Of a stretch of DNA of 21,967 bases, positions 5,237 to 21,967 are shown one piece after another; positions within the stretch are counted from its first letter, which is position 1; every line of letters starts with the position of its first letter. The DNA lies in IMG/VR virus record IMGVR_UViG_3300028925_009373, positions 1-21,967 of that record; one strand, given 5' to 3'. The DNA is from a virus. A program made the position numbers and the translations under genes. The notes below the pieces were generated by a model, which saw only the letters and a program-made list of their open reading frames with translations, made no database searches and had not been told where the DNA came from.

Positions 5237-5304
5237 TATTCCCCAGAATATTCCCCATCGGGAAAAATAGAAGGCTGCACATCACCTACAGCCCTTTAAT
5301 AACG

Positions 5305-5354
5305 TGGGGTGAGCGACGGGGCTTGAACCCGCGACCACCGGAATCACAATCCGG
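5305..5354 (-). other. tRNA-His 3' half: attachment core (not a full tRNA)
   Basis: On the minus strand these 50 bases read as tRNA-His positions 27 to the CCA end: anticodon stem CCGGA/TCCGG around the loop TTGTGAT (anticodon GTG), variable region, T arm (GCGGG, TTCAAGC, CCCGT), acceptor 3' strand CGCTCAC, discriminator C (the His hallmark), then CCA. The D arm and 5' acceptor strand are absent: the bases beyond 5354 do not form them. Phages that integrate into tRNA genes carry such 3' halves to restore the gene. The five-base arms around a seven-base loop fit a tyrosine-recombinase crossover in the anticodon loop; that placement is inference. Confidence 0.88.
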
Positions 5355-5426
5355 AGGTCTATGTAGGCGTACCAAGGCTTTTAGGCGATTTCGTGGAATA
5401 CTTTCAGTGAAAAAGCACTGATTTGG

Positions 5427-5443
5427 GTACTGTATATTCCCCG
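5427..5443 (+). repeat. Integrase arm-type site, right arm copy
   Basis: Exact copy of the 17-base sequence at 5220-5236, on the other side of the tRNA-His fragment and in the same orientation. It lies about 89 bases from the anticodon-loop centre, versus about 118 for the left copy. A pair flanking the core supports an attP with two arms. Confidence 0.65.
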
Positions 5444-5484
5444 GTAACTTTCAGGTTTTTAGTAAATATTGTTACAGTTTTTAG

Positions 5485-5539
5485 CACGTTAGAAGAGTAC
5501 GTTATTACGTTTTTTCACATTAGAAGGGGTGCGTTATTA
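5485..5539 (+). repeat. Degenerate 23/24-base direct repeat before the membrane-protein gene
   Basis: Two related copies (5485-5507 and 5516-5539) share the form CAC-R-TTAGAAG, two or three purines, T-R-CGTTATTA, where R is A or G. They start 31 bases apart. They could be sites for a second integration or excision protein in the right arm of attP, or operators for the gene starting at 5542. The sequence does not decide between these. Confidence 0.5.
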
Positions 5540-5541
5540 GT

Positions 5542-5832
5542 ATGTTAAATCTATTGAACAAGTGGAACGCACCGAGACTGGTTAAGGTCTGGTACGCTAT
5601 GATTAAGTACAGCATCGTTTTTCTGGTTTGGTCTTACGGACTGGCTTATATCATGCCACCGTTATGGGCGGGGTTTATCGGGTTCTGGATCGCGTTGCGC
5701 TTAATCATTACCGTCTACGATGATACTTGGCTAAGACTTTTACAACCCATAGTTATCTGGGTACAGCCCCCAAAGCATCAAGTGCCCTCTTCTCTTGTAG
5801 AGGAATACGAATCGCGTCAAAAAGACCTTTAG
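5542..5832 (+). CDS. Small membrane protein next to attP, function unknown
   Basis: A 96-residue protein with two hydrophobic spans at about residues 19-38 (AMIKYSIVFLVWSYGLAYIM) and 42-58 (WAGFIGFWIALRLIITV), then a polar charged tail ending EEYESRQKDL. It is rightward, and its last 80 bases overlap the 3' end of the leftward gene at 5753-7606. The only Shine-Dalgarno candidate (AGAAGGGG) is about 12 bases from the ATG, longer than ideal. Position beside attP, outside the main operons, is typical of lysogeny-expressed accessory genes such as superinfection-exclusion factors, but nothing in the sequence proves this. Confidence 0.6.
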   Translation: MLNLLNKWNAPRLVKVWYAMIKYSIVFLVWSYGLAYIMPPLWAGFIGFWIALRLIITVYDDTWLRLLQPIVIWVQPPKHQVPSSLVEEYESRQKDL

Positions 5833-7606
5833 CGCCTCTTGCCACAGGAATTCTGTTAGCTACCTCAGAAACAACAAGCTCTGACGCACCCTTGCCTTGT
5901 TGTACGATATTTTGAGGGACACGCAAACTGCCCATTTCAATAATATCATCAATAAGCTTTTGTTCTGCTGAGTTGAACAATTCTTTAAACTTGCCAGACG
6001 CTCTAAGATTCTTGAAGTGATTGGCAAACAACCGACTATTAAACACCGGAATGCCGCCCTCAGACTTGCCCATAGTCTTGGTTGCTGACTGTAGCCCATC
6101 ACGCAACACTTGCGCCTGAATGTCTTTAAAGGACTGCTTGCCCGCTTGACCTGCATCATTGAGTAGGAAGCTTTTGAACGACTTGAAATCATCAAGCCTA
6201 GACGTTAGCAGCCGAGGCACAATCTTGTCTTCGGGTATTTTGTTATCAATGACACTCTCTAAGAATGAGCCTTTTGTTTTGTCGCGCTTATCCCGTTTAG
6301 CTCTCTCAATAATATCGTGATATCGAGTCTTAGCGGCTCTAGCGCCTTGAAATACATCTTCACCCGCAGCCCTAGCCACATCATCATCAAGCGCGCCCTT
6401 TAAATCTCTAATAACCGACCTAGCTTGAGGGTTAGCGCCTTCAAAGTACTTGTTAAGCGTCTGCCTTACATTCTCAGCATCAGTAACACGCATACCTGTG
6501 TCATCGACCTTTTTAAGCCCTTTGATTAATCCTAAGTTTTCAAGATCACCCCTGACCGCTGATATCACGCCATTGCTAATAGAGTTCTTTGATACGTTCT
6601 TTCGGAGCGTATCTATAAGGCCGTCAAACTTAACAACGGCAGTCGCACTCGCCCCCTCTCTAGCTGTTACATAAGCCTGATTTATCGAATCATCCAGCGC
6701 CTTAACGACATTATCAACAGATTCAAATATATTGGCGTTCGTCTCAGGCAGATCGTTTGCGCTTGAGCCAAAAGACTCGACCTTGTTATCAACAATCTCT
6801 GTTAGTCGGGAGTCTTGTTCTGCCACCTGTTCAGATATACGGCCTGTCCTCTTTAGCCCAGATTGCTGAATCACAGCATCATCTGTGGATTGAGAGATGT
6901 TAAATCTGTTCGCGGGAACTTCATTCTCTTTAAACAAATTGAATCGAGCAGCCGCTAGTGCTGCATCGTCACCATTAGCAATACGAATAGTCTCCACACC
7001 TTCAGGCGTGAACTTTCCCGCATCATCGAGGCCGACAAGAGGCTTACCCGCTGTTGCACTGATTTGCTCATCAATCACCCGCTTAACGACTGAAGGCTTT
7101 GACAAGTCTAAATTCTTAACAACATTCGCGCCGCCTTTGATGCCAACCAACCCTAGCGCCTCTAACGCTATTGTGGGGATAGTGTGGGCCACTGTTGCCA
7201 GGAGTGGGCTGCCGGTCGCTTCAAGCGTGTTATCGCCAAGGAATCGTTCAGCACCTTGCAAGAAATCTCCGACAGGCTTGAGCGTTTCACCAATGTTCTG
7301 CAACCCTGCCTTACCTGATTCTGTGCGAGGCTGGTAAGTCAATGCGTCTTTCACCTTTGCAATAGTATCTACACTCGCATCTAAGCCGCCGCCGACTAAA
7401 GATGTGCCAAGACCCGCCAGACCCGATATAGGCTCCGCAATGATACCGCTTGCCATTGTTAATGCGGCCTCGCCATAGGAGGGCTTTGCTTCCTGCTTGG
7501 GCTTATAGTTCTTTTTGGCGTAAGCGATGATTTGTTGCTTGTTCGCGCCATCAGGGTGGTTAACTGTGATCTTTTTGCCGTCAGGTGTGTTAACTATTGT
7601 TTTCAT
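5753..7606 (-). CDS. Putative ejection/internal virion protein (P22 gp16 position)
   Basis: A 617-residue protein, close in length to P22 gp16 (609), and the last of three consecutive genes in the place of the P22 ejection genes 7, 20 and 16. The N-terminus has a short motif (TVNHPDGANKQQIIAYAKKNY-like, residues 14-34) seen at the start of several phage internal proteins. It is followed by Gly/Ala-rich hydrophobic stretches (about 44-83 and 131-163) that could enter membrane. The rest is charged and helical. Such proteins are packaged in the virion and released to help DNA cross the cell envelope. The start overlaps the preceding gene by four bases (ATGA). The role rests on size, order and composition; I cannot claim sequence homology to gp16. 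Confidence 0.6.
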   Translation of the reverse strand: MKTIVNTPDGKKITVNHPDGANKQQIIAYAKKNYKPKQEAKPSYGEAALTMASGIIAEPISGLAGLGTSLVGGGLDASVDTIAKVKDALTYQPRTESGKAGLQNIGETLKPVGDFLQGAERFLGDNTLEATGSPLLATVAHTIPTIALEALGLVGIKGGANVVKNLDLSKPSVVKRVIDEQISATAGKPLVGLDDAGKFTPEGVETIRIANGDDAALAAARFNLFKENEVPANRFNISQSTDDAVIQQSGLKRTGRISEQVAEQDSRLTEIVDNKVESFGSSANDLPETNANIFESVDNVVKALDDSINQAYVTAREGASATAVVKFDGLIDTLRKNVSKNSISNGVISAVRGDLENLGLIKGLKKVDDTGMRVTDAENVRQTLNKYFEGANPQARSVIRDLKGALDDDVARAAGEDVFQGARAAKTRYHDIIERAKRDKRDKTKGSFLESVIDNKIPEDKIVPRLLTSRLDDFKSFKSFLLNDAGQAGKQSFKDIQAQVLRDGLQSATKTMGKSEGGIPVFNSRLFANHFKNLRASGKFKELFNSAEQKLIDDIIEMGSLRVPQNIVQQGKGASELVVSEVANRIPVARGAKGLFDAIRIPLQEKRALDALGAVPR

Positions 7607-8604
7607 GGGTCAATACTCCAGCCGCCAACGCCACCATATACAAAGTCGCCTATTGAATTATCTTTTGCGGCTCCCTTTAATGCGGCAAACTCATCATCAA
7701 GAAGCTCTTGTGAACTTATAAAGTTTTCAAGCAATTCAATATTGACAGGCTCATCCTTACCAATACCAAACAACGCAGCCTTAGCGCCATCAACGTCAGC
7801 ATCAGTGGGCCGGACATCGCCATTCGCCTTCAACGAAGCTCGTGCGGCTTTCTCAGCGAATGCGTCTAGCTTCTGATCGAATTCGCCTTGATCAGTAAAT
7901 ACACCGGGCAGGAACGAGGCCACGGTGCGTGTTGTCCCGCTATTGGCCCCTTCATTCTGGAATCCGTCTAGGAAATCTTTCGCTATAGATATGTTGTTAG
8001 AACGTTCGCCCTGATCACTACCTAACTGACTCAATCGCTTCGTATTAGCTTTTAACGTCTCTGTTTGTTGTAGATTCGGCTTTGGGGCCGGATTTCTAAG
8101 ATCGTTATTTTTTATTTGTGCATTTGAAAGCTGTATTTCTTGCAATTTGGTTGGTGCTTTTGGGCCGGTTACCAATTTGTAGGCTTCTGTTTTCTGCTCT
8201 TGCGTCATGTTGCCGTAATCTATACCTGACGCAAGAGACATCTTTTCTTGTAGCGCAGTCAGCGGCTTTTTAGGCGCAGTACCCATACCCGGTATAAGCG
8301 TAGAGTTCACCACATTGCCTTGCGAATTTAACTCAACTTGATACAAGTTGTTATCGTTGCCTTGCACTTGTTTAAACGTATTCTGTGGCCCTCGCGACAT
8401 GTCTGTCGCAAGTTTCGTATTCTGAAGGCTTTGCCCACGCGCCTGCTTGTTGTAGTAGTCTGCCTGCGCGTCACGCTGATTGATCTGACTTTGCTTGAGA
8501 ACCTGTGCAAGCTGTTCATTAGAATCGGCGTTACGCTGATCTTTAATGTTTTGTTTAAGGTCAAAGCCATTCGCCAATATCATTTGTGATAATTCACTGC
8601 TCAT
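7603..8604 (-). CDS. Putative ejection-associated protein (P22 gp20 position)
   Basis: A 333-residue hydrophilic protein, rich in Gln, Asn and Lys in its first 130 residues (for example QVLKQSQINQRDAQADYYNKQ), with predicted coiled-coil segments and no enzymatic motif. It ends YGGVGGWSIDP. Both ends show ATGA overlaps, with the gene before it (8601-8604) and after it (7603-7606), so the three genes are co-translated. It lies in the position of P22 gp20, an ejection protein. Its function is inferred from that order alone. Confidence 0.55.
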   Translation of the reverse strand: MSSELSQMILANGFDLKQNIKDQRNADSNEQLAQVLKQSQINQRDAQADYYNKQARGQSLQNTKLATDMSRGPQNTFKQVQGNDNNLYQVELNSQGNVVNSTLIPGMGTAPKKPLTALQEKMSLASGIDYGNMTQEQKTEAYKLVTGPKAPTKLQEIQLSNAQIKNNDLRNPAPKPNLQQTETLKANTKRLSQLGSDQGERSNNISIAKDFLDGFQNEGANSGTTRTVASFLPGVFTDQGEFDQKLDAFAEKAARASLKANGDVRPTDADVDGAKAALFGIGKDEPVNIELLENFISSQELLDDEFAALKGAAKDNSIGDFVYGGVGGWSIDP

Positions 8605-10973
8605 GAGAATAATCCTTTGATGCCTTTAAGATAACTGTTTGCTTCTGATGTTTTAATATTGCCCAAATCTTCTGTTAGAGTCGCCCCGATGCCTTGAGTT
8701 TTAGTCATTCCTTGACCTTGACCCGCAGCCGCGTTTCCACCTAGCTGAAGCATGTTCAAAAATTGGTTGAAATCTTGGCTATTAGCATTCTGATAAAAAT
8801 TGTTTGCAGCCATATTGTTGTTAAACAGTTGGCTATTTAGGCCAAAATTATTGGCTATGTTGCCTTGAGCTTGATTTAAATCAAAGCCGCTCGACGTTGC
8901 ATCTTGCCCGAATCGTTGTGAATCTGATAAGAGGTTTGCTCGATCTTGAGCGGTGTTTATACCCTGCATTTGACCTGCATACGTCGAAGCAACATTAGCA
9001 GCTCGATCTTGCAAAGCTTTGTAGCGACCACCAGAATTGAGCTTTCCAGACGATGCAAATCCATTATTCACGGCTTGCATTTGCTCATCTTGTAGAAATC
9101 TCAGCGCGTCCGAATTTCTATCGAACACATCAATTTTGTTTACATCAACCTGACCCGCTGTTGGCCCTTGCACATCTGTATTTGGGTTAATCGTTTGCTG
9201 ACCGTCAAACAGGTCTAACACTTCTGGCTTGTTATTCAGTGCGTCCGTTGCGCCGGGTATAGCGTCAATGCCTACCTGACGGAAAGGTTCTAGGCGATCA
9301 ACCTGGCTATCATAAATTCCTTGCGAATATGCAATCGCATCTTTGTTGGCTTTAGATTGCTGATCCGAAACGTAATTAGACACGCCCGTGTTTAAAACAG
9401 TGTTGCCCACGTTACTCAGCAATTCTGTTAGCGTATTTGAGGAATCGCCACCTGTTCCGCCTTGGGAGCTGCTGCTTCCGCCCTGACCTACGCCACCTTG
9501 ACCCACGCCACCTTGAGCATTTCCACCCTGGGCATTGCCACCAGCACCACCTTCAGCATTTCCGCCCTCAGACGTACTATTTGACGTTCCGCCTTGGCCC
9601 ACGCCGCCAGCACCACCAGCACCGCCTTCGCCGCCAGCAGATGTGTTGTCGATGTCGTTATTAACATCTGTTGTGCTGGTAACCGCTCCCCCGGTTCCGC
9701 CAGCGCCGCCCTGGGAGTTGCTATTTGACGATCCGCCAGCGCCGCCTTGGGAAGTGTTGTCAATGTCGGTGTTTACTGTATTGTCAACATCGGTGTCTAC
9801 TGTATTGTCAATGTCGGTGTTTACTGTATTGTCAACATCGGTGTCTACTGTATTGTCGATGTCGGTGTCTACGTTTGTTTCATTGAAAATATCAGTGATA
9901 ATATCCATTATATTCGCTGCGGTGCCTCCTTCCGCAAATACGCCCTCACCTTCGCCGTTACCACCTCCTATTATCTGTAAAATTCGATCAAGTAAATCTT
10001 GGTCCACGCTGTCATCTCCTTCGTCTATTACTGGTTGTTCACCAATTGGGTTTTCTAAATCAGTCCCTGACCCTGGTTCTGGTTCTGGGTCTGGTTCTGT
10101 CTGTGGATTTGGCTGTGGGTTTGGGTATTGTATTGGGCCTTGTATTGGGCCTTGTCCAGGGGTCTGGTTGAATATAGACCCTGGAGGCATACTAAAGTCT
10201 GGCCCACCAGCACCGCCTTCGCCGCCACCACCTTGACTACCGCCTGGAGAGTAAACAGGCCCGCCTTCGCCGCCGCCTTCGTCTATTACTGGTTGTTCAC
10301 CAATTGGATTTTGTAAATCAATCCCTGGGTTTTGTATCGGCTGTTCAGGCCCACCAGCACCGCCCTCGCCACTGCCGCCACTACCCACTGGTGGTTGATA
10401 TGGAGGTTGGACAGGCCCGCCGAATACTGGCACTTGGCCTGGCCCGCCACCAATAGAGTCAAATATTCCACCAATACCACCACCGTTAATGATCTCAAAT
10501 AATCGATCCTCCCAATCATCTGGTAAAGTAACCAAGTCATTGCCGCCACCAAAAGGGACACCGATGACAGGTGCAAATCCGCCTGTACCAATTCCTGGAT
10601 CGCCGTACACGCCGGATACGCCTGGCCCCGGATTGTAAATCACATTGCCGCCGCCAGTTGGTGCGCCACCCACGCCGCCGCTTCCTCCTGTTGCACCGTC
10701 AGGGCCATTTCCGCTGATTCCACCTTGGGTGATGTCGCCAACGCCACCATCGATGCTGACCCCTGGAGGAAGGACAGGCTCATAAAAACCTGGAGGCAGT
10801 CCGACAGGCCCACCAAAACCTGGAGGCAGTCCGACAGGCTCGCCAATAAAATCAAAGATTGGCCCACCACTGTTTACAGGGGGTGCAGGCGGTTGGTATG
10901 GATCTTGGACAGGCCCACCAGTAAAATCAAAATCATCTAAGAAACCAGGGGTAAAACCTTGCAAAAACCCCAT
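8601..10973 (-). CDS. Gly/Pro-rich repeat protein with ejection-protein-like C-terminus
   Basis: A 790-residue two-part virion protein. Residues 1 to about 540 are low in complexity: tandem GGPVGLPPGF units near the start, PEPEPGSG stretches, two copies of an NPIGEQPVIDEG block, an Asp-rich eight-residue tandem repeat near 370-405 (NTDIDNTVDTDVDNTV), then GGAGG/GGVGQGG runs to about 525. Residues about 540-790 are ordinary: helical with a LEPFRQVGIDAIPGATDAL motif and many Gln/Asn residues (RFLQDEQMQAVNNGFASSG), as in podovirus DNA-transfer proteins. It occupies the P22 gp7 slot, but gp7 is only 229 residues. A GGAAGG-like site (GGAAGGTGG) lies at the end of the gene before it, and its ATG directly follows that gene's TAA. 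It may alternatively be an adhesin or spike fused to an internal protein. Confidence 0.65.
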   Translation of the reverse strand: MGFLQGFTPGFLDDFDFTGGPVQDPYQPPAPPVNSGGPIFDFIGEPVGLPPGFGGPVGLPPGFYEPVLPPGVSIDGGVGDITQGGISGNGPDGATGGSGGVGGAPTGGGNVIYNPGPGVSGVYGDPGIGTGGFAPVIGVPFGGGNDLVTLPDDWEDRLFEIINGGGIGGIFDSIGGGPGQVPVFGGPVQPPYQPPVGSGGSGEGGAGGPEQPIQNPGIDLQNPIGEQPVIDEGGGEGGPVYSPGGSQGGGGEGGAGGPDFSMPPGSIFNQTPGQGPIQGPIQYPNPQPNPQTEPDPEPEPGSGTDLENPIGEQPVIDEGDDSVDQDLLDRILQIIGGGNGEGEGVFAEGGTAANIMDIITDIFNETNVDTDIDNTVDTDVDNTVNTDIDNTVDTDVDNTVNTDIDNTSQGGAGGSSNSNSQGGAGGTGGAVTSTTDVNNDIDNTSAGGEGGAGGAGGVGQGGTSNSTSEGGNAEGGAGGNAQGGNAQGGVGQGGVGQGGSSSSQGGTGGDSSNTLTELLSNVGNTVLNTGVSNYVSDQQSKANKDAIAYSQGIYDSQVDRLEPFRQVGIDAIPGATDALNNKPEVLDLFDGQQTINPNTDVQGPTAGQVDVNKIDVFDRNSDALRFLQDEQMQAVNNGFASSGKLNSGGRYKALQDRAANVASTYAGQMQGINTAQDRANLLSDSQRFGQDATSSGFDLNQAQGNIANNFGLNSQLFNNNMAANNFYQNANSQDFNQFLNMLQLGGNAAAGQGQGMTKTQGIGATLTEDLGNIKTSEANSYLKGIKGLFS
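9757..9876 (-). repeat. 24-base tandem repeat inside the Gly-rich gene
   Basis: About five head-to-tail units of 24 bases begin at 9757, 9781, 9805, 9829 and 9853. Two variants alternate (TTGTCAATGTCGG... and TTGTCAACATCGG...), so the higher-order unit is 48 bases. Each unit encodes eight residues of the form N-T-V-[ND]-T-D-[IV]-D. The reading frame is kept in every copy, so copy-number change would alter protein length without breaking the gene. Confidence 0.9.
10018..10069 (-). repeat. 52-base direct repeat, copy 1 (copy 2 at 10276-10327)
   Basis: These 52 bases recur at 10276-10327, an offset of 258 bases, with about four differences. Both copies encode the block LxNPIGEQPVIDEG. Since 258 is a multiple of three, recombination between the copies would remove 86 codons in frame. 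Confidence 0.85.
10785..10839 (-). repeat. 30-base tandem repeat encoding GGPVGLPPGF
   Basis: A 25-base identical segment occurs at 10785-10809 and 10815-10839, a period of 30 bases. It gives ten-residue Pro/Gly units near the N-terminus of the Gly-rich virion protein. A third, weaker unit lies just downstream in the protein. Confidence 0.8.
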
Positions 10974-11351
10974 TTATGCCACCTTCCCAATGATTTTATG
11001 CTCTCCAACTGACGAATAAATCAAAGTAAAAGCGTCTCCTTTTGTTGCTAACGACAGCGTTGAGGCGCCGTTAATGGTTTTTGAATTACCGTTAATCGTC
11101 ACCGCGCCTGAATTTTCACGAATAACAGTGTAGGTCTGTCCAGGGATCGGGTTAACCGGGAGGTAGGCTATCTGTGCAGATGTGCCATTGAAGTTGCATA
11201 ACTCATGTCCCACCCTCGCGCTGAATGTATAATTCCCGGTCTGCCTTGAGTCAAAAAACGAGTAGCTTTTGTATGCTTCGCCTAGCAGCTCTTTTAAAAA
11301 CTGGTAAAATCCGGCTTGCGCCAGCCTAGGCATTGCATTTGGATGCTTCAT
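10974..11351 (-). CDS. Small virion-associated protein of unknown function, 125 residues
   Basis: The first 35 residues are helical (MPRLAQAGFYQFLKELLGEAYKS); the rest is beta-rich with repeated Gly/Asn turns (YTVIRENSGAVTINGNSKTI, then ALTLIYSS-like strands). This suggests a compact beta-sandwich or a small fibre or decoration protein. It lies between the holin-like gene and the Gly-rich ejection-type gene, whose ATG follows this stop with no gap, and it may contribute to the tail. No family recognised. Confidence 0.6.
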   Translation of the reverse strand: MKHPNAMPRLAQAGFYQFLKELLGEAYKSYSFFDSRQTGNYTFSARVGHELCNFNGTSAQIAYLPVNPIPGQTYTVIRENSGAVTINGNSKTINGASTLSLATKGDAFTLIYSSVGEHKIIGKVA

Positions 11352-12150: not shown

Positions 12151-15100
12151 TTAAATTGCTGAAATTATGAAGGCGAGTAGCTCACTGTAGCGAACACCCA
12201 TCCTAATCTTTTCTTCGCTAGTTTCTTCGTCAGTCCACGCGGTGTTTATAAACATTGCGTAGTCACTTGCGTCTAAGCCTTCAGCAACAAATGCAGCCTC
12301 TAAGTCTTGGGCTATGATTCCAAAGTGTGTACGAGCTTTGTCACCTTTTTCTGCTACTGAAGATTTCCAGCGGAACTTACGCAGTAAGCCTTTACAAGCT
12401 ACGGCTACACGTTGCTCTGCGTCAGAAAGCTCTGCAATGTCTTGCTTCTCGTTTCGGTCAGATGTCTGGATAGTGGCGTTTGTGGCATAGATGTCGTCAA
12501 AACGAGCAGAGCTTGCGCCTAAATCTATAGCGTTGTCGTTGTTTGAACCTGAACTATTTGCGGGCGTGATCGCATCAGCAGAGTTAGAAAATTTCAGATT
12601 TGCGTTACCCTGACCAGCAACACCATTTGTTAATACGAGCTTTTGTGCTGTCAGAGTGGTACCAACATCAACAGCCGCATTAAATGCCGCGCTCCCGAAA
12701 TCGCTCATATCCAAAGTTAAGGCGCTGATGACACTAGAACCATCCAGACCTTTAAAAATTATGTCTTTATCAGAAACCATTGAGCGAATAATAAAATCAC
12801 TATTCGTCATCTGGAACATACCTATATCGCCAGCGGCGTCCTGCACACGAATAACGCCATCATCAGCATCAAGATGTATTTCTCCTTTAACGTCGAGGAT
12901 CATATTATTAGACAATACTTTTATTCTAGCTTCTTCAGTATCACCAGTTTGCTTTTTAAAGAAGATATTTTTGGAGTTACCATCCCCACCAACCAAGACT
13001 ATAGACGGAGATGCCGCAACATCAAGGTTTAAATCTCCACTTAATGTTGCTCCCGTAGCGGTCACACTACCGCCAATGGTGGTTGCACCGTTTCCAAATA
13101 CTCTTAGCAAAACATTACTAGCATCATGGTCAACTACATTTAAAGCAATATCACTGCCAGTAGACGCTGCGGCAATAGAAACTCCAAAACTTTGAGAATT
13201 GGTTTCTTCTCCGTTCTGAAATGTCGCGATAAAATCATTTGCTAACGCGCCATCAAGAGCCTTAACTACCATTTTGCCATTTACATTAAACATACCGCCA
13301 TAATCGGAAGCCGTACCAATGTTTACGTGGTCACTCCCACCGTCCACAAACAGCATGTTAGCGTTGCCGTTTGATTCAACGCGGAAGTCAGAGTCTATAC
13401 TGCTTTCGTTAAAGACTGCACCTGCATTAAAAGTAGCTGCACCTGCTACCGAAATTCCAAGGGCGGTGGTTTCAATTTTCTTTACATTATTATGGTAAAG
13501 CGAAACTGCACCGTCAGCGATAAAGTTTGCCATCGTTTCCGACGCGCCTTTTTGGATGTAAACGCCAGCACCGCCAGATTCTAAAATTAACTGACCAGTG
13601 CCTTGGTCGCTGACCCAACTGTTACTACCATCATGGTAAATCTGTAGGTCGCTACCAGCGCCGAAGATGGCCTTGCTTGAGTCTGTAAACGTAATGTCAT
13701 CGCCTGCGGATACAGCGAGGTCTGTGCCGCCAGTAGTATTTCCGAGGGCGAGAACTTCTGCCAACGTGTCCGCAGTGTCTACTTGAGCATCAACGTAGGT
13801 TTTAATCGCCCCTTGTGTCGCTAACAGCGTAGCACTTGTACCGAGGGTGCCGTTATCAACCCCTGTGACAGTCGCGCCTGTAGCAAGTGCTAAACTAGCG
13901 GCTGTGGCTGTTCCTGTAGTAGTAAGGTTTTCATTGCCAAAACTAATGGCGCCAGAACTATCTGTGACACTGCCTGAACCAATCGTCAGCGTTCCTGCTG
14001 TTAACGTATCGAACCAACCCTTTAGCCATCTGACCGCCGTAGACCCCAGGCTATCTGTACTGTCTGTATCACTAATAATGTCTGCGCCACTGGTGATACC
14101 ACCCGTTGCTACTTGTGTAGCTGTTGTGGTTAAAACACCTGTGACCAGTGCAGTGGTCGCCATGTTCACGGCACCGTCAATATCAACGACATCAAGGTTC
14201 GTAACGCCATCAACATCAATGTTGCCTGAGATGTCTAAACTAGCCGCGATGATTTCACCGCTGGCGTTAATTGCACCATTGATATCTATTGTGGTTGCAG
14301 CAAGCTGTATCTCGCTGTCAGCTACGATATCGAGCTGACCATCAACCGAGGAATTAATGTAAATCGCAGCATCTCGGAATTGGACCTTGTCAGTTGTGGT
14401 TGTAGCAATGTCTGTCCCGCCAGTAGTGTTACCAATGGCTAAGATTTCAGCCAGGGTATCCGCTGTGTCTACTTGAGCATCAACGTAGGCTTTGATGGAT
14501 TCTGATGATGAAAGTGTAGTCGCACTAGCACCTGACATCGTGTCAGAGTCTAGTACCGCCGAACCACTGACCCCCGTATTCAATACTACCGAGGTAATCG
14601 TCTTGTTGGTCAGCGTGTCTGTTGTAGCTTTACCAACCAGGGTATCCGTTGCTGCTGGCAGTGTAACAGTCACATCTGCCGTTGCCGCCGGACCAATCAG
14701 GGTTACCGCATTTGTACCGTTGTCAGTATCCTCTTTGAATAGAATGCTACCTGCCGCACTCGCACTGCCTGAAAGCACCGGAGCCGTCAGTATCTTGTTA
14801 GTCAGCGTTTGAGCGTGGGCCTCAAAAACAAACGTGTCTGCTCCTGTAAGCAGCGGCAGAGTGACGGTCCTGTCTGCAGCCAGGTTAGCAACAGCAAACA
14901 CATATTGATGGTCTGCTGCGCTATCGTTGATTTGTGGGGTCGTTAAGACCGGACTTGTTAGAGTCTTATTCGTTAACGTCTGAGTCGCAGTCGTTGCGAC
15001 AGACTCGTACCACGTTCCCAGTGACCCGCCGTCGTCAGAGTTCCACCAAAGTCCATTGGACTCAGTGATTACAACCTGACCATACCTGATCTCGCCAGTC

Positions 15101-15313: not shown

Positions 15314-16738
15314 TCATCCTCTTAATATTTGTGCGTCAATTGCCGCGTCAAGAACATCTACTTTGGTATTACTGCTGGTTTCTACGCGTACAATAATCTC
15401 TCTGCTTTTCCCGATTGAATTGATATCAATAGTTTTGTTGCCATCCACAGTCATCGTATTGATCGTCGAGAAACTGATTAAGTCTTTTGAGACTTTCAAG
15501 GCTACGCTCGAACTTGCAGACGCATCGACATGCAACTTGACCTTATCAATAACCATTTCTGCGCCGCCGACATCCATCACCTCAGAACTAATCAGCGGCA
15601 GGTCTTTTCGCCTGGTCATATTTGCGCCATCTTGTTGATAGTTTGAAAAGTCTAGCCTGTAGATTTTTTTGTTTGCAGAATGAGCCGCCAAAACAAGATC
15701 ATAATGATGAACGATTGAGGTGGTCATAAAGTCTTTTTCAAACCACGTTTGAGATGTAACGTGGTAGCACCATATTTGCCCCTGATCACTAAAGATGAAA
15801 TCGACAAAGTTCTCTTGATGCAGGGAGTATGCAGAAACTCTTGCAGTCGCAAAGTCTGTTGCTCCGAACGAAGCCCACGCCTCTCCTATCGCGGGAACAA
15901 ATAACGGTTGGTGATTCTCACCTTGGATCATTCCAGGCCGTCGATTGCCGTCGATAAAATAGATAATGCCGTCAATCGAATCTACTGCGTAAGTGCCACA
16001 AATGCCCTGCTGTAGAACTGCTTGCCGATTCAAAGGCGGTCTACCTGTGCCGCTGGTAAACCATATCTCTGTCGTTGTCTCGCCGAACAAATAAAGAAGC
16101 TGGTTGAGACTGAAGACTCTCAGGAGATCATCAGGCAACGCTTCTGCCTGGGCAAAGTCTAACGAGGCAATTGTGGTGCCATCGTTTAAAGCTGAAACAA
16201 CAAAGTACCCGTCCGGTTGTTGATAAATAAACCGGGAGTCGAGAAAGGCAACGGAGCTGGTCGTCAGAAGATCGTCATCAGTCACCACAACTAACCCAGC
16301 GGCTACTGTGTAAACGTATACGTCTGGTGTGCCGCCCGTCGTGATTATGAGCTGAGTTGCATCAGCGGCCATCACAACAGGATTCGGAGTATTGCTAATC
16401 TCTCCAATGAAAAGGGCATTGCCGCTGGAATCAATCGAATACAATGCGGATCCGGTGACCTGATATAAAAGACCATTCGGCCCGTTAGCAATCAGTCCTC
16501 TGTCTGCGCCACCTGGGTTGATTGAAACCTGCACAGCATCTCCATCAGAATCAGTGACGGCTGAAGCGTTAGTGTCTGTCAGTGGTTCGCCCTGAGACTG
16601 AAAGCTCGCGAATGTGACATGCCCTGGGAATTGCCGATAGCCTCTAAGCGTATTCGGAAACAGGTTAAGCGTTTGCTGCCGATTAGCATCCAGGCGAGTG
16701 CTTTGATAGCTAGACTCTAGCGGAGCCATGACTCTCAT
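15314..16738 (-). CDS. P22 gp10-like packaged-DNA stabilisation protein
   Basis: A 474-residue tail hub protein (P22 gp10 has 472). It opens with the family's LESSYQSTRLDANRQQTLNLFPN block, followed by beta-propeller-like repeats such as GPNGLLYQVTGSALYSID and LFGETTTEIWFTSGTG. In P22, gp10 sits below gp4, seals the portal after packaging and anchors the tailspikes and needle. Its start overlaps the gp4-like stop by four bases (ATGA at 16735-16738), matching the P22 order of genes 4 and 10. The fibre gene follows at once, and no tail-needle (gp26-like) gene is seen between. Confidence 0.93.
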   Translation of the reverse strand: MRVMAPLESSYQSTRLDANRQQTLNLFPNTLRGYRQFPGHVTFASFQSQGEPLTDTNASAVTDSDGDAVQVSINPGGADRGLIANGPNGLLYQVTGSALYSIDSSGNALFIGEISNTPNPVVMAADATQLIITTGGTPDVYVYTVAAGLVVVTDDDLLTTSSVAFLDSRFIYQQPDGYFVVSALNDGTTIASLDFAQAEALPDDLLRVFSLNQLLYLFGETTTEIWFTSGTGRPPLNRQAVLQQGICGTYAVDSIDGIIYFIDGNRRPGMIQGENHQPLFVPAIGEAWASFGATDFATARVSAYSLHQENFVDFIFSDQGQIWCYHVTSQTWFEKDFMTTSIVHHYDLVLAAHSANKKIYRLDFSNYQQDGANMTRRKDLPLISSEVMDVGGAEMVIDKVKLHVDASASSSVALKVSKDLISFSTINTMTVDGNKTIDINSIGKSREIIVRVETSSNTKVDVLDAAIDAQILRG

Positions 16739-17205: not shown

Positions 17206-18393
17206 CTAGTTAATACCAATCCGACAAGCCGTTTCAGGTCTGACAGTTTTATACCCGTACAAGATATCAATCCTGCATGGGAACGTGTCAGCACTGATTG
17301 AGTAGTCACGAACGATTCTCATAGAGATCCCGTCCATCACCTCTCGCGCAGCGAAGTCGATACCTTCTGGCAACACAAGGTCAGCCGTTGCAAAGACAAA
17401 GCTGTTCTTGCTGTACGCCAGGTCATCAGTCCAGTCAGCGCCTGAAGCACCTCCCAGTTTCACGATTGCGGCGTTATTGGCAGGCAGTGCGCTGACGTTC
17501 TGAGTACCGGTCGTTGCACTAATCGAAGGACTGATCGACAGCGTAGTCGCAGAGGCGCCTGAGTTCGCAGTGATAACAAAGTTCTGGAGAACTCCAGTAT
17601 CGGCTTTAGTCTCAGGATGCACTCGATTGACACCCACTATGGTGATCAAGTCACCAATTAGAAACGTGGTCGAACCAGTATCTACAATCAGGCTTGTACC
17701 TGTTTGAGATGCACCGTTGACCAAATAACCAGTGGTAGCTGCTGCTGTACCGCAAGTGTGCGTTGGAACAAGCGTGTTTTCATAGTGATCAAAACCCGCG
17801 ATGCGTCCGAGCATACCTTCCTTGTACTGCTTGGCGATGCTGCCAGAATCTTGGAACAGACCCTTTGTGTCGGCAAGCATGTCAACCACACTTTGAGGAT
17901 CGTGCATGTAATTCCTGTCGCTGTATGGAGCCAGGCCAAGCGTTAACTGCTTCTGAGCCTCGGTTACATTAGCAAAGGTATTTGCTGATCCAACACCGTT
18001 GACAAAGTTGTAGACATCCTTCGTCATTGAAAACGCATCAGATTCGATGTTGGATGCCAGCACAGACATTGCCGGTTCAATGTATCGCTCTTTGAAATTG
18101 TCGATGTCCATTGAAAGTTCTTCGGAGCTAAACGTAAAATCGACACCCTTCTGGGTGGCTACGCTTAACGTGACCGAGCTTTCCGTAACGTCCTGGGACG
18201 ATAGAGCCGCTCCAGTTCGCACAGTAAACTCGTTTGGCAAACGAATCTTGAGATCGTTGCCGATTTTAGCACCTGATTTTGCATACTGGTCATCGTATTG
18301 ACGGTCAATTGAACCGACGAAATTGAGTTTCTGATGCAAAATAGCCAGGGCTTCTTTGGTTATGACACTTGGTGTCAGTAGTGAATTAGCCAT
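17206..18393 (-). CDS. P22-family major capsid protein
   Basis: A 395-residue coat protein (P22 coat: 430). It has the P22-coat family pattern: start MANSLLTPSVITKEALAILH, then NFVGSIDRQYDDQYAKSGA, KIRLPNEFTVRTGAALSSQD, and TFSSEELSMDIDNFKERYIE with AMSVLASNIESDAFSM. A Gly/Thr/Ser-rich beta insertion at about residues 225-315 corresponds to the P22 I-domain but is smaller. The C-terminal part (FATADLVLPEGIDFAAREV, then ILYGYKTVRPETACRIGIN) completes the HK97 fold. AGGTAAC before ATG gives good translation. It follows the scaffold stop by 12 bases and is closed by two strong terminators. Confidence 0.94.
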   Translation of the reverse strand: MANSLLTPSVITKEALAILHQKLNFVGSIDRQYDDQYAKSGAKIGNDLKIRLPNEFTVRTGAALSSQDVTESSVTLSVATQKGVDFTFSSEELSMDIDNFKERYIEPAMSVLASNIESDAFSMTKDVYNFVNGVGSANTFANVTEAQKQLTLGLAPYSDRNYMHDPQSVVDMLADTKGLFQDSGSIAKQYKEGMLGRIAGFDHYENTLVPTHTCGTAAATTGYLVNGASQTGTSLIVDTGSTTFLIGDLITIVGVNRVHPETKADTGVLQNFVITANSGASATTLSISPSISATTGTQNVSALPANNAAIVKLGGASGADWTDDLAYSKNSFVFATADLVLPEGIDFAAREVMDGISMRIVRDYSISADTFPCRIDILYGYKTVRPETACRIGIN

Positions 18394-20119: not shown

Positions 20120-21967
20120 TTATACAATTGGTAAGCCGACTGACTGTCTCAGCCGCATCTGTGCAATTTGTTTTGATTCAAGGTCCGACTGCGCTTCAGC
20201 CAGCTTTAACTGCTCGACGGCTGACTTCACTGTGTTCATCATTGCTTTGCTTTCGCGCTCTTTCGCTTCGGCTTGCTCAGTCACAACCTCTGCCTGTTTC
20301 AACGCCAGCTCTAATTGTGCTGCCTGGGCTTCAATTTGCTGCTGCTGCTGTATCTGCCCTTGCATCGCTGCCGCTTCTTCTTCGTTAGGCTCAATGATTC
20401 CAGACTTAACGCCAGCACTTCTCAGCCTCTTGATGACCTCATCACCACCGACAAGATCAAGGTTTTGGAACAAGACATCCCCGACAAGCTCAGACATCGC
20501 TGGATTCTGCGCAATGATGCCCGACAACTGTTCAGCCGTTTCCTGCTTCCGCGTCGTGAATGACGGCCCTGAAGAAACTTTTATGTCATAGTTTCCAACG
20601 GTCAAATCCATCGTCTTAACAAACTCTCCGGTGGATCCATCCATCAGTGTTTTATTGACTGCGATGACCTCCTCCCGCTCGTCTTCACCAATGATGCGAA
20701 TTGTTCGCTCGGTATCATAGACCGAGGGGATCATGTCGATGATCACCCTGCCAGCCAACTCCAGCGAGTCAACCAACTGGTCTTGAAACTCAAAATTCGC
20801 CATCTCTCCCTGGAACTGTCTGCCTCTGATCGCTACACCGGACGTTTCATTGCCTGACGCGCCCATGTTGGCATCATAGATACCTGTCGTGGATTTAATA
20901 TCCTCTGCGGCTATCTGCGCGTCCTGCATCAACCCTGGTGAACCTTGCGCGGGCTGCTCTCGAAAAGGCTTCTGCCCATTATCAAAGTTGAACATCATCA
21001 CGGGATCATTGCTGACCATCATGTTTTTCCAGCGTGACTCATGTCCTTTGATCATCGCAGGAGTAACAAAGTAAGGCTGTTTGGGCGTTAGTCCGGTAAC
21101 CTCGACCGCTACGCTTCTCGAGTAGTTGTACAGCCTCTGAGCGTCCTTAGCTTTGCGCACAAGCCCTCTTGTGATATATCGCCCGTTGATGTTGCTGGTC
21201 TTGCCGAACATTGGAATGATCGGGATAAACCTGCCAACGCACTCAACCTCTTCAAGCACTTCCATGCCAGTGATTTTGAACCGTTCTAGCTTGCGACCCT
21301 GGACCTTTCTGGTCTTGCCCAAGGTAATACCCATCTGGTTCAACTCGTCCCGGACAGGCTCAATTTCTTTTAGGTCTACAACGCGACCGTCTGACAGTTG
21401 AACAAGCGTCTGTTCTTCGTTCACTATCCGAAAGTAGTCTGCAACACGCACTGACTCATCACTGACCCAGCTATCGAAATTGCCAACGCTATCCCAGTCG
21501 CTATCGCTCCCAGATGACTCGGCATCGGGATACATCCTCTCGAACTCTTTGCGCTCCATATCCTCAAACAGAAAACCAAACCTGGCCTCTTGGACATGCT
21601 GCGCTTGAATGATCGGGTCAATCAAAACGCTAAACGGGTTCTTGATCTCCCTGATCAGAATGTCCTGATCTAAGCTAACGTCATCAATAAAGTCGTGATC
21701 AACTAATACGCAGCCAAAACCGCCTTTAACCGCGAACTTGAACGCCGTCTTGAACGCTTGCAGTCCACGCTGGTCAATCTGTTGTATCAAGCCTTGATAG
21801 ACCTCTGCCGTGGCCTCGTCGCCCTCCTCGGCCGCCCTGACCTTCACGCTGGGCATGTTAGCCAACTGTCCACCAACTACCCTGTCAACTGAGCTAGAGA
21901 GCTTGTCAAACGTCAAGCAAGGTCTGTTATGCCTCGACTCTCTCGCAGAATCCTCCCACTGACCGTC
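20120..21967 (-). CDS. P22-type portal protein (5' end outside the window)
   Basis: At least 615 residues are visible; P22 portal has 725. The frame stays open to the right edge, and the edge codons read DGQWEDSARESRHNRPCLTFDKL in order (split here as DGQWEDSARESR and HNRPCLTFDKL), the family's W-x-x-x-A-R-x-x-x-x-x-RP block. So the TTG at 21914-21916 is not the start. Further features: KFAVKGGFGCVLVDHDF, NPFSVLIDP, RYITRGLVRKAKDAQRLYNY and GASGNETSGVAIRGRQFQGE. The last 100 residues are a Gln/Ala/Glu coiled coil (QGQIQQQQQIEAQAAQLELA) like the P22 portal barrel. Twelve copies form the DNA entry pore and bind terminase, whose genes should lie just beyond the right edge. Confidence 0.95.
   Translation of the reverse strand, partial: DGQWEDSARESRHNRPCLTFDKLSSSVDRVVGGQLANMPSVKVRAAEEGDEATAEVYQGLIQQIDQRGLQAFKTAFKFAVKGGFGCVLVDHDFIDDVSLDQDILIREIKNPFSVLIDPIIQAQHVQEARFGFLFEDMERKEFERMYPDAESSGSDSDWDSVGNFDSWVSDESVRVADYFRIVNEEQTLVQLSDGRVVDLKEIEPVRDELNQMGITLGKTRKVQGRKLERFKITGMEVLEEVECVGRFIPIIPMFGKTSNINGRYITRGLVRKAKDAQRLYNYSRSVAVEVTGLTPKQPYFVTPAMIKGHESRWKNMMVSNDPVMMFNFDNGQKPFREQPAQGSPGLMQDAQIAAEDIKSTTGIYDANMGASGNETSGVAIRGRQFQGEMANFEFQDQLVDSLELAGRVIIDMIPSVYDTERTIRIIGEDEREEVIAVNKTLMDGSTGEFVKTMDLTVGNYDIKVSSGPSFTTRKQETAEQLSGIIAQNPAMSELVGDVLFQNLDLVGGDEVIKRLRSAGVKSGIIEPNEEEAAAMQGQIQQQQQIEAQAAQLELALKQAEVVTEQAEAKERESKAMMNTVKSAVEQLKLAEAQSDLESKQIAQMRLRQSVGLPIV

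Follow-up and report, generated by a model that had tools for sequence, protein, structure and literature searches.

A P22 gp7-type ejection protein with a large acidic N-terminal extension in a group of P22-like phages

We analyzed a 21,967-base virus record (IMGVR_UViG_3300028925_009373, the whole of which is referred to as the window) that bears a P22-type structural region on its minus strand, and within it the protein encoded by the minus-strand open reading frame (ORF) at 8601..10973. Our findings indicate that this 790-residue protein is very probably a member of the P22 gp7 family of ejection proteins, in a variant form carrying a large added domain. An earlier reading of the sequence alone, hereafter the original prediction, had described a huge low-complexity N-terminal extension of ~540 residues joined to ~250 residues resembling podovirus DNA-transfer proteins. 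The extension proved to be both real and unusual: it is part of a single ORF that begins with ATG and is preceded by a good ribosome-binding sequence (Shine-Dalgarno-like GGGAAGGTGG), and the measured division of 512 and 278 residues is close to that first estimated. While the gp7 family is already known, the large acidic extension on a gp7-type ejection protein appears to be new.

We assigned the C-terminal part (residues 513-790; 8604..9437, minus strand) using profile searches, structure prediction and gene order. Its composition is ordinary (entropy 3.85 bits, 10% Gly, net charge -9), and AlphaFold2 (AF2) predicted it to be all-helical. The window protein alone matched phrog_598 ('DNA ejection') with an E value of 5.9e-4 over residues 527-730; the same family, to which P22 gp7 belongs (6.5e-95), matched 16 of 20 aligned members of the long family, the best at 6e-13. 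Profile-profile comparison (hhalign) with thirteen short gp7-type proteins, including that of P22, scored 98-98.5% (E 6e-14 or 3e-15), the match beginning at window residue 531. P22 gp7 by itself failed to significantly match the long-family profile (E 0.14, three-sequence set); thus, the link runs via intermediates. The motif LRFLQDE (residues 624-630; 9084..9104, minus strand) is near-invariant in the long family (alignments A1-A3). With respect to gene order, the P22 record gives 10-26-14-7-20-16, and the order in the window (portal, coat, Hc3, fibre, 118 residues, 125 residues, the 790-residue gene, gp20 slot, gp16 slot) matches it: the gene follows the gp10/tail-tip genes and precedes those of the gp20 and gp16 slots. 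Its length lies outside the ~200-280 residues usual for gp7, a range that is typical rather than strictly defining; P22 gp7 has 229 residues, as originally stated. Taken together, the profile matches and gene order demonstrate, at the level of sequence, that the P22 gp7 family and residues 513-790 are homologous and that the latter occupy the gp7 slot, which bears out the resemblance first proposed.

The N-terminal extension (residues 1-512; 9438..10973, minus strand) is low-complexity (3.51 bits, 27% Gly), with a net charge of -65 and only two Lys or Arg residues (0.4%); among the proteins listed for the window it is the lowest in Lys/Arg and has the strongest charge per residue. AF2 returned coil (predicted local confidence, pLDDT, 29-57) except for three short helices: residues 154-163 (10485..10514, low confidence), residues 322-335 around DQDLLDRILQIIG (9969..10010), and an amphipathic helix at residues 351-365 within GTAANIMDIITDIFNETNV (9879..9923) that was also found by a hydrophobic-moment scan, all on the minus strand. 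The same scan identified amphipathic helices of 14-20 residues, comparable to that at residues 322-335, in the extensions of many relatives. Since the AF2 input contained 20 relatives in a shallow alignment and two runs gave pLDDT values of 37 and 43, the broad picture alone was used. Sequence searches of the PDB and of NCBIfam returned no match. Residues 1-512 are in all likelihood a disordered acidic extension.

The GGxGG runs, PPGF units and Asp-rich octad repeat named in the original prediction are all present in the extension. Five octads with the consensus TVDTDVDN span residues 367-406 (9756..9875, minus strand) and correspond to a 24-bp tandem DNA array (9757-9872). A near-identical strain, L002, encodes a 782-residue protein with four copies, one octad fewer, indicating that the length of the array varies. 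The octads are followed by a glycine run (residues 408-512; 9438..9752, minus strand) that adjoins the gp7 module. GGxGG spacing within residues 405-520 was observed 8 times compared to 1.6 in composition shuffles, with 2 of 2000 shuffles as high; the excess was weak for residues 195-280 (41 of 2000 shuffles as high) and absent for residues 80-150.

We next asked how the extension is distributed. Viral contigs were scanned with four queries (gp10-like protein, coat, gp7 module and a divergent module) and genome contigs once; besides truncated proteins, these scans yielded 19 different long proteins that are complete (681-982 residues), that of the window included. All 19 possess an N-terminal extension, and the 18 from other viral contigs share the same architecture in the same slot. 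For long forms in which both genes could be paired, coats were 77-100% identical to that of the window. Where pairwise ratios of nonsynonymous to synonymous substitution (dN/dS) could be computed, values were 0.14-0.41 for the extension and 0.04-0.34 for the module; thus, both parts are constrained, the extension usually less so. Because independent contigs keep the fused frame and purifying selection acts on it, a chance frame or a frameshift fusion was ruled out. Likewise, an internal start yielding a short gp7 was rejected, as residues 430-631 contain no ATG and no convincing ribosome site was apparent at GTG or TTG codons.

The slot is bimodal among relatives, holding either a long protein (681-982 residues) or the module with little or no extension (202-343 residues). 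Short forms found on viral contigs with the coat query measured 228-280 residues and accompany coats 58-61% identical to that of the window, while Vibrio phages with short forms have coats that are 29-30% identical. Those measured in cultured or annotated phages were 203-257 residues long, plus two of 303 and 343 residues. Homologues that keep the C-terminus and lack the extension, for which the original prediction had recommended a search, therefore exist among Vibrio phages and other P22-like phages; a Gly-rich region encoded as a separate gene, which it had also considered, was not found within the extended group. In a coat tree the long state maps to one change, the split having a support of only 78 in the approximate likelihood ratio test (SH-aLRT). 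Within the group, the extension was present on each contig that had a complete, detectable copy of the gene, a good many being too short to judge. Searches with tblastn using the window protein, the module or long relatives found no match in 50,697 phage records; a family consensus gave two weak hits (E 0.4 and 0.9) that were then confirmed by gene order and profiles. Host genomes contributed one relative, in a Gammaproteobacteria metagenome-assembled genome (MAG), and 294 genomes of the same order gave two more matches, both weak and to short proteins. That relative, L071 (PASO01000001.1), is a 5'-truncated long form on a contig binned to the MAG and represents the sole host hint for the group. 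Two further gp7-type proteins have additions of other kinds. L157:967-1998 (MW202573.1) encodes 343 residues with ~110 extra at the N-terminus, a small and different extension that is Gly/Ala-rich and hydrophobic; in L149:1255-2166 (Pseudomonas phage PAE2) the module (phrog_598, 6e-30) continues at its C-terminus into a region that matches tail-fibre families and bears an S74 chaperone annotation, a further case of a domain fused to gp7.

Comparison of the complete long proteins revealed that their extensions have net charges of -58 to -124, no more than 5.7% Lys+Arg, and no Cys. Their composition varies, from Gly/Pro in the window to Glu/Pro/Asp (L032, L047, L058), Asn/Asp/Gly (L010) and Gly/Thr/Asp/Ser (L023, L053, L067). 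Glycine runs occur at the same place in L023, L036, L049, L053, L061-L063, L067, L071 and L078, and are absent from that place in L010, L026, L032 and L058. In L063, L067 and L078, short tandem motifs (VGDTSAT, GGSVGDTSAT) stand just before the gp7 module and could form a beta-solenoid or roll. Judged from these sequences, the extension is conserved in character, namely acidic, poor in Lys/Arg, free of Cys and predicted to be disordered, while its sequence is not conserved.

Extension, module and head genes do not turn over together. L063 and L067 are 80% identical in the extension and 49% in the module, while L063 and L062 are 71% identical in the extension and 98% in the module; L053 and L062 have coats that are 93% identical and modules that are 45% identical. 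The coat and Hc3 of the L005/L049 contig are 100% identical to those of the window, while its gp7-like module is 30% identical. The window itself contains a mosaic break: its head half is 98.8% identical to the L005/L049 contig and a ~99% match to contigs 3300030059_001953 and 3300028548_003338, while its tail/ejection/lysogeny half is 99.6% identical to 3300028925_008888. The break, at ~14.0 kb (window 13723-14217), lies inside the tail-fibre gene and may have arisen either by recombination in nature or during assembly; the comparisons of L053 with L062 and among L062, L063 and L067 are independent of it. Among the ejection proteins of Enterobacteria P22-like phages, gp7 is the best conserved, and it is suspected to bind gp10 (PMC10883804), a pattern opposite to the exchange observed here.

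These comparisons bear on two functions originally proposed for the repeats. One was that the GGxGG runs pack as polyglycine-II helices, possibly making the extension an adhesin fused to an ejection protein. Although polyglycine-II tips are known from gp38-type adhesins (PMC12892980), and the GGxGG register of residues 405-520 exceeds that of shuffles, AF2 predicts no ordered structure for the extension (low-confidence coil, from a shallow alignment), and the extension matches neither a solved structure nor Gly_rich_2 (no match up to E 1, compared to 4e-18 for a separate Gly-rich gene of relatives). In addition, ejection proteins are located in the virion interior, and many relatives lack glycine runs. 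The near sisters L023 and L026 share 77% identity across the aligned part of the extension, but the glycine run is found in L023 alone and is replaced by non-glycine repeats in L026, making a polyglycine-II fold unlikely as an essential function. We therefore regard this proposal as highly improbable. Separate Gly-rich genes do adjoin the tail fibre in relatives (L033:11070-11879, L034:12245-13054 and L025:5043-6227; Gly_rich_2, PF21722, confirmed in L033 and L025) and likely encode a fibre-tip adhesin; at this place the window has a 118-residue DUF7936 protein. A distant phage, L004, carries a separate 394-residue gene (5268-6452), Gly-rich and uncharged, directly upstream of a short gp7. It may be an unlinked equivalent of the Gly-rich part, with no demonstrable homology to the extension.

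The second proposal was that the D-T-D-x-D-N repeats bind calcium. Expanded to the family, it holds that the octads and the EF-hand-type loops of relatives bind seawater Ca2+, so that the chain is kept compact in the virion or its folding is triggered after ejection. Canonical EF-type loops were present in the extensions of 11 relatives compared to 0.13 expected from shuffles, these loops falling into several sequence groups without being independent events, and Pfam EF-hand matches were obtained for L010, L054 and L058, albeit with every score below the curated cut-off. The spacing DTDxDNTVDTD in the window resembles positions 1, 3, 5, 8 and 9 of an EF loop; however, the window contains no EF loop (DxDxDGxIxxxE), its octads lack the Glu of position 12 and match no family, and the Gly- and Pro/Glu-rich variants have no common metal-binding motif. 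Support for the proposal is indirect, coming from the extensions of relatives, and a calcium-responsive ejection protein appears unlikely.

As the overall best explanation, held tentatively, we suggest that this is an ejection protein of gp7 type whose N-terminal segment is flexible, polyanionic and adapted to the host. In P22, ~12 copies of gp7 are present, gp7 enters procapsids via residues 21-154, and the ejection proteins exit before the DNA, gp7 being thought to form the virion-proximal/outer-membrane part of the conduit (PMC8402733, PMC8954989, PMC10925440). By analogy, about a dozen copies would be packaged through the gp7 module, would leave the virion via the tail ahead of the DNA, and would form the section of the conduit nearest the virion, at the outer membrane; the extension, belonging to the same polypeptide, would be ejected with the module. 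Because it is unstructured, polyanionic and rich in Gly and Pro, the extension could thread unfolded through the narrow tail while being repelled by packaged DNA, and once outside could act as a flexible acidic spacer or tape whose few short amphipathic helices contact the host membrane or neighbouring conduit proteins. Tuning of the extension to the host envelope would explain its quick sequence turnover with length and charge kept, which suggests that it is possibly a fast-evolving, host-facing addition to a known DNA-injection machine. We consider it reasonably probable that the extension is packaged and ejected together with the gp7 module; that its main role is that of a host-facing spacer is a possibility we favor less. 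The fullest version, in which a marine P22-like group has added a polyanionic disordered gp7 domain as a host-matched ejectosome component, calcium-responsive in some lineages and exchanged together with the ejection module but separately from the head, is doubtful as a whole.

Several points weigh against this explanation. On its own, the window protein matches PHROG only weakly; Foldseek searches of the AF2 models against the PDB and BFVD gave nothing significant and, the models being of low confidence, were not used; no published ejection protein with such an extension was found in the literature; and the long family is known here from contig sequences alone. Space is also a concern, since twelve P22 gp7 molecules take up as much volume as the P22 portal channel offers, and the tail channel is small (PMC8402733). 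Furthermore, the N-terminal 20 residues of P22 gp7 are removed by OpdA and are nearly dispensable (PMC8402733), and cleavage might likewise remove the extension, either ahead of packaging or following it.

This last point makes an assembly propeptide the strongest rival, if still an unlikely one: the extension would keep gp7 soluble, or off DNA and membranes, during procapsid assembly and would then be cleaved by a host or phage protease, leaving the C-terminal module alone to be packaged. Dispensable pro-regions are typically acidic, disordered and fast-changing, and a polyanionic tail would aid the solubility of membrane-prone gp7-type proteins, in keeping with the host processing of P22 gp7. 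Nevertheless, ~500 residues is 25x the P22 propeptide, and both the dN/dS values and the presence of the extension in all complete members point to a stronger role. Family searches recognized no protease gene in the window, although a host protease remains available to this model. Alternatively, the extension may serve as an intravirion filler or DNA-repelling polyanion that organizes the genome near the portal, with no role after ejection. While its conserved strong negative charge and the displacement of packaged DNA by P22 ejection proteins (PMC8402733) fit such a function, other P22-like phages get by without the extension, and the fast, mosaic, clade-by-clade turnover and the amphipathic helices are left unexplained; we view it as improbable.

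The remaining structural genes all lie on the minus strand. They include a P22-type portal protein (20120..21967; PF16510, 2e-156), a P22-type coat protein (17206..18393; PF11651, 2e-43) and the gp10-like head closure protein Hc3 (15314..16738; phrog_578, 6e-49), along with a probable scaffold slot, an adaptor and a tail fibre that bears an S74 chaperone domain. Directly upstream of the 790-residue gene, in the gp14 slot by position and by the lengths in relatives, is a 125-residue protein (10974..11351), nearly constant in length among relatives (125-136 residues), strongly diverged in sequence, and with weak tail/baseplate matches only. By position, a 333-residue protein (7603..8604), with a homologue beside the short gp7 of L004, occupies the gp20 slot and a 617-residue protein (5753..7606), with homologues in L023, L026 and L004, the gp16 slot; neither matched a family in our searches. 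The sizes of these two slots, looked at only in passing, exhibited no clear consistent change with the extension. The plus strand encodes a YqaJ-type recombinase, a single-stranded DNA-binding protein (SSB), an HNH protein and an integrase, and this P22-like podovirus is therefore probably temperate. Vibrio-type relatives and the MAG match lead us to infer a marine origin for the group.

The way in which short-tailed phages construct their channel across the cell envelope is understood only in part, and earlier descriptions present gp7-type proteins as small and well conserved, a pattern that this group breaks. Here the gp7-like protein can be replaced while the coat and gp10-like proteins stay identical. 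With a long, acidic, disordered part in a protein bound to pass through a narrow channel, nature offers a way to ask whether ejection proteins are unfolded in transit and what their N-termini are for; such a part also suggests that gp7 is able to face the host. Were the extension no more than a propeptide, it would still be an unusually large one.

The closest known system is P22 gp7/PHROG 598 (P22, APSE-1 and Vibrio phage relatives), which has the homologous module in the same slot, after gp10/fibre/gp14 and before gp20/gp16. Whereas characterized gp7/gp14-type proteins are 196-240 residues long (PMC8954989) and P22 gp7 has 229, the window protein has 790, of which 512 form the acidic extension; the long family also has extra residues between its PF..G and LRFLQDE motifs, and the group is far more diverse. 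Vibrio phages 1.183.O (257 residues) and vB_ValP_FGH (243 residues) have the same gene order and a gp7-type protein but no extension. T7 gp14 (196 residues) and Pseudomonas phage DEV gp73 (17.7 kDa), both outer-membrane pore ejection proteins, are alike in their assigned role as the first, outer-membrane part of the ejectosome, and both lack the extension. The polyglycine-II adhesins of S16/PP01 gp38 and the Pfam family Gly_rich_2 are likewise rich in GGxGG, but were not detected in the extension. Finally, the 'molecular tape' of T7 gp16-N, an extended ejection-protein segment that holds conduit subunits, offers a possible analogue of the extension, by analogy only, as it belongs to a different protein and comprises ~70 residues.

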